Both the position numbers and the translations under genes were made by a program. A model generated the notes under the pieces. It searched no databases. It was not told where the DNA came from and saw nothing but the letters and a program-made list of their open reading frames with translations. A DNA stretch of 64,000 bases from Corynebacterium glucuronolyticum (GTDB lineage Bacteria > Actinomycetota > Actinomycetes > Mycobacteriales > Mycobacteriaceae). The stretch lies in NCBI GenBank assembly GCA_022772305.1, contig JALFAQ010000002.1, positions 1 through 64,000 of the forward strand. Reading direction: 5' to 3'. Every line of letters begins with the position of its first letter. The stretch's first letter is position 1. Shown here one piece after another: positions 51,388 through 59,630 of this stretch.

Positions 51388-53379
51388 ATGAGCCTTCTCG
51401 AAAGGATTGTTTCCCCCCGCGACGTTCGCGCTCTTCCGCAAGAGCGCCTCGAAGATCTGGCCAGCGAGATTCGCGATTTCCTGGTTGAGAAGGTCTCCGC
51501 AACTGGAGGGCACCTTGGGCCGAACTTGGGCGTTGTCGAGCTCACTATTGCACTCCACAGGATCTTCGAATCCCCCAAGGATCCGCTCATCTTTGACACC
51601 TCGCACCAGTCGTACGTGCACAAGATACTGACGGGCCGGGCAGACAAGTTCGATACTCTGCGACAAAAGGACGGACTTTCCGGGTACACGGACCGGGCCG
51701 AGTCGGAACACGATTGGACCGAGTCCTCCCACGCGTCGGCCGCGTTGAGCTATGCGGACGGGCTGGCGAAGGCCTTCGCTCTGACGGATCAGATTGACCG
51801 CAAGGTCATCGCGGTTGTCGGCGATGGCGCTCTTACAGGTGGAATGTGCTGGGAAGCACTGAATAATATCGCTGCGGATAAGACGCGCAACATCGTCATT
51901 GTCGTCAACGACAACGGCCGCAGCTACTCGCCGACGATCGGCGGCTTCGCCAATAGCCTTGCCGATCTTCGCACCCAGCCGTTCTATGACAAGGTGATGG
52001 AGCAGGGCAAAACCACACTCAATTCCATGGGGTGGGTGGGCAAGCGCACCTTTGAGGTCATGCACGCGCTCAAGGAGGGCGTCAAGTACCACGTCATCCC
52101 CACGGAGATGTTCCCCGAACTGAACATGAAATACGTGGGCCCGGTGGATGGCCACAATATCCAGGCGCTGGAGCATGCGTTCAAGTACGCAAAGGAATAC
52201 ACCGGTCCGATCATCATCCACTGCGTGACGGAAAAGGGGCGCGGTTACGCCCCGGCGGAAAACAAGACGAGCGATCTCATGCACTCCACCGGCGCGATCA
52301 ACCCGGAGACCGGTATTCCGCTTGCTAAATCACAGCGCTCGTGGACGGATGTCTTCACCGAGGAGCTCCTCAAGGCGGGTGCTCGCCGGGACGATGTTGT
52401 CGCAATCACGGCCGCGATGGCAGGCCCAACCGGGCTCGCGAAGTTTGGGGAGAAGTTCCCCGATAGGCTTTTCGACGTCGGCATCGCTGAGCAGCACGCG
52501 ACAACGTCGGCTGCCGGCTTGGCGCTGGGTGGTCTGCACCCGGTTGTGGCGTTGTACTCCACGTTCCTCAACCGTGCTTTTGACCAGATGCTCATGGACG
52601 TGGGACTGCTCAAACTCCCCGTCACCATCGTGCTTGACAGGTCCGGTATCACCGGCTCAGATGGTGCATCTCATAACGGTGTGTGGGACATGGCCATTGC
52701 CGGCATCGTTCCCGGAATGCACCTGGCTGCGCCGCGCGACGATGAGCGCTTGAAGGAACAGTTCAACGAGGCCATCGAATACGCAGACGGGCCGACGATT
52801 GTTCGCTTCCCCAAGGGTGCCCTCGTCCCTGTCATTGATCCGGTCGAGACCGTAGAGGGGGGAGCGGAGTTCATCTATAAGTCGAGCCGTGTGGACGGTA
52901 ATGACCGTGACGACGCAGCTGCAGATAAGCAGCATTCCGTTCTTATCGTCTCTATTGGTGCGTTGGCCGGTTCCTGCGTGGAAGCAGCTCGCATGCTGGA
53001 AGAGGAAGGCCTCGCGGTCGATGTCCTCGATCCGGGCTGGGTGATTCCCGTCAACCCGGTGATCCCTGAGCTCGCCGAGCAGTATGACACCGTCGTCACG
53101 GTGGAGGATGGCGTGATTCATGGTGGCGTTGGCTCGATGATCGACTCCGTGTGCGATCAGTGCGGTGTCGATACACCGGTGCGCATTATCGCCGTGCCAC
53201 AGAAGTTCCTGCGCCACGCGTCTCGTTCCCAGGTTTTGGCTGAACTTGGAATGGATGCACCGGGCATCGCCGAATCTATCCGTGGGTGGTGCACACCAGG
53301 TGCGGGAAGCCCTGCTCACCCGGACGCGCAATCGAGTGTGTCGTACTTGCGAGCCTTCGGCAACCACAGCGGAAAATAA
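51388..53379 (+). CDS. dxs: 1-deoxy-D-xylulose-5-phosphate synthase
   Basis: [38 protein letters not shown] (TPP motif), [21 protein letters not shown]. Confidence 0.97.
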
Positions 53380-53530: not shown

Positions 53531-54715
53531 CTAGCCTTCTTGCAGCGCGGTCTGAAGAACCTCCACCGCGTGGGTGATCTCCTCGTCGGTAATAACAAGC
53601 GGGGGAACCAGCCTGATGACGTGCGGATTGGGGGTGTTGATAAACACGCCATTTTCCAGTGCAGTGCTGGCTACCTGCTTGGCGATCTCAGCGTCGAGAA
53701 CGAGGCCGAGCATGAGGCCACGTCCACGGATCTCCGTGACATGGGGGAGTGCAGCACACAGTGATGCCAGCGACTCGCCCTTTCGTTTGACCTCGTCCAG
53801 GAAGGCATCGTCGAGCACATCGAGGACAGCATTGGCGGCGGCTGCAACAATTGGATTACCACCAAACGTAGAGCCGTGATCGCCCGGACCGAGGAGTGTT
53901 ACCGCTTTCCCGCTGGCGAGGACAGCGCCCATCGGCAGGCCACCACCGAGTGCCTTGGCCATGGTCACCACGTCAGGGACGATACCCGCGTGACTAAAAG
54001 CGAAGAAGTCACCGGTACGACCGACACCGGTTTGTACCTCGTCAATGATGAGGAGAATCCCATGCTCATCGCACAGTTGCCGCACAGAACGGAGGAAACC
54101 GTCCGCTGCGGGGATGACACCAACCTCGCCTTGGATCGGTTCGAGGATGATCGCCCCCACAGTGTCGTCGACAAGCGAAGACAGTGACTCGAGATCACCG
54201 TAGGTGAAGTACTCGACACCGGCGGGGAGAGGAGCGAAAGCCTTCTGCTTGTCCGGCTGGCCCGTCAGTGCCAGCGAGCCCATCGTGCGGCCGTGGAATC
54301 CATCATGGGCGGCGAGGATCCGGGGCCGTCCCGTACGGCGGGCGATTTTAAACGCTGCCTCGTTGGCTTCAGCGCCGGAATTACAGAAGAATACGCGTGC
54401 ATCGTCGGCCGGGAAATATTCCACTAGGCGCTCAGCCAGGTGAACGGCGGGCTCGGTAATGACGAGGTTGGAGGTATGCCCAATCGTCCGGGTTTGCTCT
54501 TCGATCGCCTTGGTGACGTGGGGGTGCGCGTAGCCCAAAGCGTTGACGGCGATGCCGGAAACCAGATCGAGGATTTCTGTGCCGTCAGTGGTCACGAGCC
54601 AGGAGCCATGGCCGGAGGCAATCTCCAGGGAGGGGGTCCCGTAGTTATTCATCATGACGGCATTCCACCGGGCGGTCAGGCCCGGAGAGGTTGGAGAGTT
54701 GTCAGGTATAGTCAT
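53531..54715 (-). CDS. argD: Acetylornithine aminotransferase
   Basis: [38 protein letters not shown] class III. Confidence 0.95.
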
Positions 54716-54721
54716 CGTCTT

Positions 54722-55645
54722 CTATGCACTTTCTGTGAGGTCAGGATTTTCTGGGGGAGTATCTGCCGCGGTCGGAGTAACCATCGTCCCGATGCCCGAC
54801 GAGGACATGAACTCGAGGAGAACCGCGTGTGCGACACGGCCGTCGATGACGTGGGCGGCGGACACCCCGCTATCCACCGCATCGAGACACGCCTCCATTT
54901 TGGGAACCATCCCCGAATCGAGGGTGGGCAGCAGAGTACGCAACGCATCCGTGTCGAGCGCACTGATGAGGCTTGCTTCGTCCGGGTAGTGGGCCAAGAG
55001 ACCGGGAACGTCGGTGAGCATCACCAGACGCTCGGCGTGGAGGGCGGAGGCGAGAGCACCGGCTGCCGAATCCGCGTTGATGTTGTAGATCTGGCCGTCC
55101 TCATCGGGGGCGATGGTGGACACAACGGGGATGCGACCATTGGCAATGATGTCGGTGATTGCTTCCGTCTGTACAGAGGCGATGTCACCTACGAGTCCCA
55201 CGTCGGTCGGCTTGCCTTCGACGCTGACGTATCGCTTCGTGGCGGTGAAGAGGCCTCCGTCCTCACCTGTGGTGCCCATTGCATAGGGGCCGAAGGAGTT
55301 GATGAGTCCGACGAGCTCCCGACCAACCTTGCCAAAGAGCACCATGCGGACCACATCGAGGGTGTCCGGTGTGGTGATGCGGAAGCCACCACGAAACTCT
55401 CCCTCAATGCCGAGTCGGTGCAGCATCGAGGTGATTTGCGGGCCACCACCGTGGACTACGACGGGGCGTGCGCCGACGGTGCGTAAAAAGACCATGTCGG
55501 CGGCAAAGGCCTTCTTCAGATCGTCATTGACCATGGCGTTTCCGCCGTATTTCACGACGATGATTTTGTCCTTAAAGTGTTGCATCCATGGGAGAGCCTC
55601 AGCGAGTACCTCCGCCCGGATGCTGGGAGACACATCTACTGTCAT
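54722..55645 (-). CDS. argB: Acetylglutamate kinase
   Basis: [45 protein letters not shown]. Confidence 0.97.
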
Positions 55646-55720
55646 GGATTATCCTTCCTGGGGTTAATTCTTTTGTCTGTCGTGTCTTACCTTCGTGCTC
55701 AACGCGTCAAAACCAACCGG

Positions 55721-56881
55721 CTACGTGTGGTAGGCGGAATTGATTTCCACGTATTGGTGGGACAGGTCCGTGGTACGCACCGTGGCGGTTCCTTCACCGC
55801 CAATGCCTAGGTCGATGACGACTGCGATGTCGGGACCGGAAAGATCGACATCCTTTGCATCAGCCGTTGGTGTGGACTGTGTGCAGACCGTGTGCCCGTT
55901 GAACGTCACGCTGAGGTTTTCCGCATCGAGCTCCGCGTCCGCCATGCCGACAGCCGCGAGGGCGCGGCCCCAGTTGGGGTCGGAGCCGAACATCGCGCAT
56001 TTGAAGAGGTTGTCCCGCCCCACTGTCCTGGCGGCATTGAGCGCCTCCGCATCCGAGGCAGCGCCCGTGACAGTGATGCTGACACGCTTGGTAGCACCTT
56101 CTGCGTCACCTTGCAACTGATTAGCCATGTCTTCGCACGCCGTCCGAACCGCACTGTTGAGCTCATCCTGGCTGGGTTGGTAGCCACTGGCACCGTTGGC
56201 AAGGAGGATGACGGTGTCGTTGGTAGAAGTCGTGCCGTCAATATCCAAAGTGTTAAAGGTCTTGTCGGAGCTGCTCTGCAATGCCTCCTGGGCCATTTCC
56301 GGTGTGATGTCCGCATCGGTGGCAAGAACACAGAGCATGGTGGCTAGCGAAGGAGCCATCATGCCCACGCCTTTGCCAATCCCGCCGACGACGAAGCCGT
56401 CGGCTTTCACCAAAGTCGTCTTGGCTACCGTGTCCGTCGTCATAATCGCTTCTGCGGCGGCTTCACCTGCTTCGGGTGTACTGGCCAATGCTGTGACTGC
56501 GGTGGGGATGACCGGGATGAGCGTATCCATATCCAACTGCTCACCGATGATGCCTGTGGAGCAGACAGCCACGTCCTCCGTCGCAATGCCCAGCTCCTTA
56601 GCTGTTACCTCTGCCTGGGTGTGGGCGTTGTCAAAGCCTTGGTTACCCGTACACGCATTGGCGTTGCCGGAATTGATAATCACTGCCCGAAGCGAACCAT
56701 TCCCAACGTGTTGCCGAGTCAGCTTAACGGGAGCAGCAAAGACTTTGTTCCGTGTAAACACGGCGGCGGCAGCGTGCTGTGGCCCGTTGTTGGCGATAAC
56801 GGCAAGATCCTTCTTGCCAGATTTCTTTAGTCCTGCGGTAATTCCTGCGGCGCTGAAGCCCGGGACTGATGTAATAGACAA
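55721..56881 (-). CDS. argJ: Bifunctional glutamate N-acetyltransferase/ornithine acetyltransferase
   Basis: [31 protein letters not shown] (autocleavage A-T). Probable TTG start at 56881; the ORF extends further upstream. Confidence 0.94.
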
Positions 56882-56999
56882 TCGATTTTCTTCCTTTGCT
56901 TTGTAACGTGTTGTAACTAACTGGTGGTGGTGCCCCGCAGCGAAATGCTGCGGGATGAAAGTGGTGTACGCACAACGCTGCCACGTGCTGCGTTGCCAC

Positions 57000-58046
57000 C
57001 TAGGGAGCGATAGCCACCTGGGTGAGCCCGGAGTGTTCTGGCCATCCAAGCGCCAGGTTCATTGACTGGATGGCATTTCCCGCTGTTCCCTTGGTGAGGT
57101 TGTCGATTGCCGAGGTGATCACGGCTTTGCCTGCATGTGGATCCGTCGTCACCTGAATGTGGCAGTAGTTGGAGCCGAGAACATTTTGGGTTGCGGGTTG
57201 CTGGCCTTCGGGGAGCACTACAACAAATTCTTCGTCCGCATACCACTGCGTATACAAGGCGTGGAGATCCTGGGAACTCATCGCTTTGTTCGCCAACGGG
57301 GCGACAACGGTGCTAAGGATGCCCCGGGTCATGGGTGCGAGGACCGGGGTAAACGAGACCGTGACCGGTTCGCCTGCCACGTGTGTGAAGTTCTGCTCCA
57401 TTTCTGGGGTGTGTCGGTGAATCCCTCCCACGTTGTAAGCCCTGGCCGAATTCATTGTTTCTGCCCCGAGGTTGGCTACGGAGGCTTTCTTCCCGGCCCC
57501 CGAGACGCCGGAGAAACTGACGATAGTCACTTCAGGGGCGATGATGTGCTTGGCTAATGCGGGAGTTGCCGCGAGGGCAGCTCCGGTAGGGAAGCATCCG
57601 GGAACGGCAATTGTCCGTGACTGTGTGAGTTTTTCGCGCTGCCCGGGAAGCTCCGGTAGACCGTACGTAAACGTTCCGGCGTGTACCGAGTGGTAGAACT
57701 TTTCCCACTGTGTGGCATCTTCGAGCCGGAAGTCGGCGGAAAGGTCCAGGATGAGACAGTCACCTTCCACCTCGCGGGCGACCTCTGCGGAATAGCCATG
57801 GGGGAGTCCCAAAAAGACCACGTCACATTGGTGGAGGTGTGCAGCATCGGTTGGCTCGATGATTCGGTCTGCGAGGGGGGACACATGCGGGAGGAGTGCG
57901 CCCACGCGCCCTCCGGCGTTGGAGTTACCCATGAGCGGTCCGATAATGAGCTCATCTGAATTGTATGCGGGGTGGTTGAGCAGGAGTCGCAATACTTCAG
58001 CTCCTGCATATCCGGTTGCACCGGCGATTCCTACTGTAACTGCCAT
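57000..58046 (-). CDS. argC: N-acetyl-gamma-glutamyl-phosphate reductase
   Basis: [34 protein letters not shown]. Confidence 0.96.
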
Positions 58047-58065
58047 GCCTGAACTCTAATAAAGC

Positions 58066-58090
58066 ATGCACTTAAATGCAAAATATGCAT
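58066..58090. promoter_or_regulatory. Tandem overlapping ARG-box-like palindromes upstream of argC
   Basis: ATGCAcTTAAATGCA (58066-58080) and ATGCAAAATATGCAT (58076-58090) share the central ATGCA; 20 bp upstream of the argC start. Confidence 0.65.
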
Positions 58091-58463: not shown

Positions 58464-59630
58464 TTATTCGCTACGAAGAGACTCTTCAAGTAGTTCGCTG
58501 ACAAGTTCCACCTGCCAGGGGCGGGCGCCGAAGCCTGTGAGCAACTCCGCGACAGGGGTGTCGTCCTCGTGTGCGACGCGCTGCCACACGACATCGCGGA
58601 CGACGGCAGGGGCTACGAGAACAATGGGGTCCATCTCGAGCTCGTCGGCCCGATCGGCGACTGCAGTGGTTGCCTCGTGCAGAGCATCCCACGCTTCGGG
58701 GCACAACCTCTTCCAGGCGCTTTTCGTCGGGGTGCCCTCTTCTTTGGGTAGAGTTGCCCAGGAGTCTTGCGGTTTGTTCAGCGCTTGGCTAATGACTGAT
58801 GCCCACAAACGAGGGTTAGATCGGTTGCGGAGTATGGAATGCACGTCGTCAGGCGTTGTCGGGTGTTTTTCTGCCAGCAGGCTGAGCAGCTTGTTGCTGA
58901 GCACTCGACCGGGGGCAATGTCCTTGCTGCGGGCAATTTGGTCGCGCTTGTTAAACAGCGCCCAAGCCGCCTGCACTTGGGGGCCGTGCATGCGACGAAT
59001 ACCTTTCACGTCGTGCCATGTCTTTTCATGCTGGACGGGAGGAAAATCAATGATGTGCTGAAACTCATCTTCCGCCCAATCAAGCTTTCCCTCGCGGTTT
59101 AGAAGTGCTGTGAGGGTATCGGCTAGTTCGATGAGGAGCTCTACATCGAGCGCTGCGTATATGAGCCACGAGCGTGGGATCGGGCGTTTTGACCAGTTTT
59201 CGGCGGCGTGACCTTTCTTGAGGTCAATGCCGAGGATCCGGCTCGTCATCGCAGCCAGGTTGACCTTGTCAAAACCGAGGAAGCGGCCAGCCACCTCAGT
59301 ATCGAAAAGCTGCGGTGCCGTCATTCCCACCTCTCCCAAACATGGGAGATCGCTCACGGCGGCGTGCAGGATCCATGGGCAGCGGTTCACTACAGGGGCC
59401 AAGACGGATGGAAGCTCAGTGCGTAGAGCTTCTGCATCAACAAGAAAGGTGCCAGCAGTTTCCTGGCGGAGTTGGATAAGGTAAGCCCGGTCATCGTAGG
59501 TGTAGCCGGAAGCGCGCTCTGTATCGATGGCGATAGGTGCTCCCGGCTCGAGGCTGGCAGCACAGTCAGCCAATTCGGAGGAGGTAGTTACCAAGGGGGT
59601 CTTTCCATCCCGCGGAGCTGTCAGAAGCAT
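58464..59630 (-). CDS. rnd: Ribonuclease D-like 3'-5' exonuclease with HRDC domain
   Basis: PIAIDTERASGYTYDDRAYLIQLRQ, FDTEVAGRFLGFDKVNLA, HRDC region (RDQIARSKDIAPGRVLSNKLL). Confidence 0.92.
   Translation of the reverse strand: MLLTAPRDGKTPLVTTSSELADCAASLEPGAPIAIDTERASGYTYDDRAYLIQLRQETAGTFLVDAEALRTELPSVLAPVVNRCPWILHAAVSDLPCLGEVGMTAPQLFDTEVAGRFLGFDKVNLAAMTSRILGIDLKKGHAAENWSKRPIPRSWLIYAALDVELLIELADTLTALLNREGKLDWAEDEFQHIIDFPPVQHEKTWHDVKGIRRMHGPQVQAAWALFNKRDQIARSKDIAPGRVLSNKLLSLLAEKHPTTPDDVHSILRNRSNPRLWASVISQALNKPQDSWATLPKEEGTPTKSAWKRLCPEAWDALHEATTAVADRADELEMDPIVLVAPAVVRDVVWQRVAHEDDTPVAELLTGFGARPWQVELVSELLEESLRSE

Follow-up and report, generated by a model that had tools for sequence, protein, structure and literature searches.

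In Corynebacterium glutamicum, the arginine genes argCJBDFRGH are transcribed as the operons argCJBDFR and argGH (PMC4258820, PMC3827942). In the Corynebacterium genome examined here (G000), argC, argJ, argB and argD lie between dxs and rnd in a window of 64,000 nucleotides (the whole stretch of DNA that was analyzed), which raises the question of how four genes of this cluster came to stand at this site, and where the rest of the arginine pathway is encoded. The original prediction proposed either a split of the operon with relocation to this core region, or loss or separation of argFRGH. Gene identities were assigned from open reading frames and NCBIfam models with curated cut-offs, and the features of the locus are as follows.

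51388-53379, plus strand: dxs, flank downstream of the block, convergent with argD (TIGR00204, 608 bits)
53531-54715, minus strand: argD, acetylornithine transaminase, last gene of the block (NF002874, 561 bits, above cut-off)
54722-55645, minus strand: argB, acetylglutamate kinase (TIGR00761, 254 bits, above cut-off)
55721 to about 56881, minus strand: argJ, glutamate N-acetyltransferase (NF003802, 446 bits, above cut-off)
57000-58046, minus strand: argC, N-acetyl-gamma-glutamyl-phosphate reductase, first gene of the block (TIGR01850, 374 bits, above cut-off)
58061-58089, minus strand: tandem ARG-box-like pair TGCATATTTTGCAT-N5-TGCATGCTTT, presumed ArgR operator (matrix score 28.4)
58464-59630, minus strand: rnd, ribonuclease D-like, flank upstream of the block (TIGR01388 is the best family match, at 122 bits, below its cut-off)

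The genes argC-argJ-argB-argD are intact and lie in this order on one strand (53531-58046, minus strand), and all four frames are open both in G000 and in its nearest relative, G097, the genome of which is complete on a single contig. The start of argJ is probably a TTG codon with a purine-rich stretch upstream, as judged from sequence reading and comparison with G097. The ends of dxs and argD are 151 bp apart, and 417 bp separate argC from rnd on the upstream side; rnd is the neighbor of dxs in relatives too, and here runs in the same direction as the block. The open reading frames and family models bear out the predicted order, strand and dxs-rnd position of the four genes, as well as the predicted absence of further arginine genes after argD: convergent dxs comes next, argF is not directly downstream, and argR, argG and argH are not in this cluster. 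The end given to the block in the original prediction, 58090, matches the upstream end of the box pair.

G000 is a draft of 92 contigs (2.61 Mb, completeness 100), and absences therefore lean on the single contig of G097. A full-genome check for argF, argR, argG, argH and a second argCJBD, as first proposed with the prediction, found ArgB in single copy in G000, so that there is no duplicate operon, and located argR, argG and argH together on another contig (C79), away from argCJBD. The order on C79 is pheS-pheT-focA-argR-argG-argH-(small ORF)-tyrS, where pheS, pheT and tyrS were named from sequence and conserved order; this is the ancestral site, and no remnants of argC, argJ, argB, argD or argF are left there. 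A search of G000 for the ornithine carbamoyltransferase (OTC) family returned no canonical, ArgF-type OTC and two proteins only, both on contig C14: PyrB and one OTC, the gene of which is divergent from the adjoining pyrR-pyrB. Of the proposal that argFRGH were lost or separated, loss thus holds for argF, whereas argR, argG and argH are present and unmoved.

With the ArcB-type model NF003286 the OTC of G000 scored 475 bits, against 326 with the ArgF-type model NF001986; the corresponding scores of the canonical ArgF of G199 were 231 and 404, and, unlike that ArgF, the OTC of G000 does not have its best score with NF001986. NF003286 is its best model, but 475 bits is below the cut-off of 515, while the cut-off of the general OTC model is exceeded. 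The protein is approximately 80% identical to the OTC of the arc operon in G064. No match to arcA was found in G000 or G097, nor was arcC found in either genome, where the kinase-family matches were weak and one of them was ArgB itself. The OTC of G000 consequently stands outside any deiminase pathway and is presumed to serve arginine biosynthesis. Judged from the genes seen, the arginine pathway looks almost complete despite the break-up of the operon, and arginine auxotrophy would not be predicted. The first step of the pathway, N-acetylglutamate synthase, is Cg3035 in C. glutamicum (PMC3827942).

The arrangement was then set against 242 Corynebacterium genomes, 154 of which had both argB and dxs placed. 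Only two of the 154 carry argB less than 10 kb from dxs, namely G000 and G097; the two genes are on different contigs in 58 genomes, and where they share a contig the median distance between them is 260 kb. In nearly all relatives whose regions were read, argCJBD(F)RGH lies between pheT and tyrS, the exceptions being G016, G047, G100, G144 and G004, which are without argCJBD, and G183. The dxs and rnd genes are convergent in relatives, and in most of them lie directly tail to tail, abutting or overlapping by a few bases, so the two are close neighbors, as stated with the original prediction. Both the pheT-tyrS location and the dxs/rnd adjacency fit an operon that was split and moved into a core region. 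The order dxs-argDBJC-rnd, which would be common in the closest relatives if it were the ordinary arrangement, is shared with G097 alone. G097 has the order rnd-argC-J-B-D-dxs and the same three-way split: pheT-focA-argR-argG...argH occupies the old site, and the OTC gene adjoins pyrR-pyrB.

Since focA lies between pheT and argC in G045, G091 and G214, the former place of the block was between focA and argR; for the same reason, focA was rejected as an insertion that replaced argCJBD. At the other end, the dxs/rnd junction of some relatives holds other ORFs (L173:6864-8537 in G063 and L187:7527-8862 in G103), which are single and, as judged by eye only, seemingly unrelated. The junction seems to be tolerant of insertions, and its convergent layout fits such a site because an insertion disrupts neither flanking gene.

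Two further observations concern the old site. In G097, approximately 4 kb with three ORFs lie between argG and argH (L148:11307-15398), a gap of only about 0.5 kb in G000. The genomes in which argCJBD is missing as a block (L165 in G016, L166 in G047, L164 in G100, L156 in G144 and L167 in G004) mostly keep argF-argR-argG-argH, and a short argD-like piece remains in G004.

An ArcB-type OTC is present in 21 of the 242 genomes, and most of those examined are without ArgF; some keep arcA and arcC, and in G064 the OTC is part of an operon arcD-arcA-OTC-arcC-argR-like (L190). G198 carries both OTC types, its argF match having an in-frame TAG. At the old place, argD is directly followed by argR in G045, G064, G063, G083, G129, G035 and G071, and also in G114, G130, G197, G219, G201 and G232; G045, G064, G063 and G083 are without argF, have an ArcB-type OTC and still hold argCJBD in the old place, and G045 looks like an intermediate. 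A second relocation was found in G183, where argCJBD lies beside murA on a separate contig (L225, G183:C10, 545-5368), and argG and argH lie before tyrS, next to arc genes, on the contig that also carries an ArcB-type OTC (L193, G183:C12). These genomes can be arranged as a series, which is not proof, from an intact operon, through addition of the OTC with a stop in argF (G198) and disappearance of argF, to movement of argCJBD.

Most genomes with an ArcB-type OTC have it no more than about 10 kb from pyrB (L006, L188, L189, L190, L192-L197, L202, L203 and L265), in settings that vary from a full arc operon to arcC only or the OTC alone. The OTCs of G130 (L192) and G198 (L195) are nearly identical (tree branches of 0 and 0.003) and share a pyrR-pyrB-pyrC-like context in two distant species, which suggests recent transfer. 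G114 holds a tandem pair of ArcB-type OTCs with equal score and the same N-terminal sequence (L199:8478-10798). The OTC tree was mostly unresolved and contained two very long rows.

Two TGCATA-type boxes, with starts spaced by 19 nt, precede argC in most relatives, and such pairs resemble tandem ARG boxes known from actinomycetes (PMC5839063). With a box matrix built from relatives other than G000 and G097, the pair of G000 scored far above every other separate site in the window (at most 8.8), and the G097 pair at the same place scored 27.5. A weaker pair precedes argR in both species (12.1 and 10.9); no similar pair was seen at the OTC gene, and searches for sigma-70-like promoters and intrinsic terminators gave nothing above chance. 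Because a pair typical of the genus stands before argC, the block carries its own operator, and ArgR, the gene of which lies at another locus, could act on it in trans. We infer binding of ArgR at 58061-58089, and the block is probably an intact four-gene module under ArgR control.

Taken together, these data make it likely that argCJBD left the argCJBDFRGH locus with its operator for the dxs/rnd junction, after an ArcB-type OTC had replaced ArgF. The displacement of argF would probably have come earlier, and the incoming OTC, now beside pyrR-pyrB, is presumed to have a biosynthetic role. In an ancestor common to G000 and G097, the four genes and their own tandem ARG boxes would then have left their place downstream of pheT, with focA on one side and argR on the other, and entered the junction where dxs and rnd meet tail to tail; argR-argG-argH would have stayed behind at the old site. 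The pathway would accordingly run from ArgJ, ArgB, ArgC and ArgD at the new site, through the ArcB-type OTC at the pyr locus, to ArgG and ArgH at the old site, and ArgR would act on the moved block in trans.

Alternatively, argCJBD and argF may have been lost while argRGH were kept, and argCJBD with its promoter later regained from another Corynebacterium. This is an unlikely course of events, although G016, G047, G100 and G144 lack argCJBD and mostly retain argR, argG and argH, and the block of G000 and G097 sits on a long stem, its best position in the trees not being the one found for the old-site genes. G000 and G097 fall inside Corynebacterium in the trees of argCJBD as well as in those of argR-argG-argH-pheT-tyrS; a donor outside the genus was unsupported, argCJBD falling inside it in 49- and 66-row trees. 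The sister group of the two genomes was unstable: with the gene set and the sampling it changed between G163, G098, L054 and the focA clade. Under a mixture model, their grouping with the focA-bearing relatives G045, G091 and G214 was rejected for argCJBD (p-AU of 0.023), a possible sign of transfer from another Corynebacterium, but not for the old-site genes (0.69); however, the same grouping gave 0.12 and 0.10, respectively, once long rows were removed, and no single argCJBD gene rejects it. The trees, suggested originally as a check, thus keep the pair within Corynebacterium, but the exact place of argCJBD was unstable, and the two sets of trees do not separate movement within a genome from transfer between Corynebacterium species. 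Regain would also need two events and a donor block without argF; no close donor was found among the 242 genomes (the best ArgB after that of G097 is approximately 71% identical), and the GC content of argCJBD is ordinary. No repeat, mobile element or scar showing how the block moved was found, and candidate repeats or pseudogene remnants linking the old and new sites were chance-level matches only. These sequences are read more simply as movement within the lineage, with transfer between Corynebacterium species possible.

It is very improbable that argCJBD is decaying or without function here, with arginine taken from host or medium. Between G000 and G097, argCJBD has diverged strongly compared with argG/argH (a ratio of 4.9, at the upper end of the 1.7-4.9 of other pairs); however, besides the open frames and the conserved operator pair in both species, dN is 0.11-0.18 with dS above 2 (NG86, the genes being too saturated for YN00), which indicates strong constraint on argCJBD, and the dN of flanking rnd is similar (0.15). 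An assembly artefact in the 92-contig draft, or a second copy of an intact argCJBDFRGH elsewhere, is scarcely credible, since single-contig G097 has the identical order, no second ArgB was found, and the old site is present without argCJBD.

Extending movement of the block with its operator to the genus, it may tentatively be proposed that argCJBD is a self-regulated movable module, and that the operon dissolves repeatedly once an ArcB-type OTC replaces ArgF; the block would have relocated at least twice (dxs-rnd, and murA in G183) and been lost as a block in other lineages. The locus shows an operon coming apart in steps that can be read across relatives. It allows a direct test of whether an operon breaks up after one of its enzymes has been replaced by a distant homolog, and of how genes that take their operator to a new site remain regulated although the repressor gene does not move. 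Neither argF nor an unbroken operon is a safe guide to arginine prototrophy in Corynebacterium. No published account of this rearrangement was found in the open-access literature.

Similar to the cluster of C. glutamicum, G000 has the orders argCJBD and argR-argG-argH and an ArgR-type operator before argC, and its unmoved part keeps pheT upstream and tyrS downstream, as in the usual cluster of the genus genomes read. Dissimilar from C. glutamicum, argCJBD is at dxs-rnd, argF is absent, and argR-argG-argH stand alone at the old site. The OTC is like that of the arc operon in G064; however, unlike Corynebacterium arc operons, G000 and G097 have neither arcA nor arcC, and the OTC is alone beside pyrR-pyrB. 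Clusters of argCJBD apart from argG and argH are found in Streptomyces and Geobacillus (PMC4258820, PMC5839063), and Streptomyces coelicolor uses an OTC gene named arcB and has tandem ARG boxes before argC (PMC4258820, PMC5839063). G000 resembles these clusters in the separation from argG/argH, and gene order and predicted operator would fit a regulated promoter of its own; however, location, operator sequence and OTC setting differ, and the split is secondary, in a genus that usually has one eight-gene cluster. What appears to be new is this secondary break-up within Corynebacterium, in which the block retains its operator and one enzyme has given way to another.
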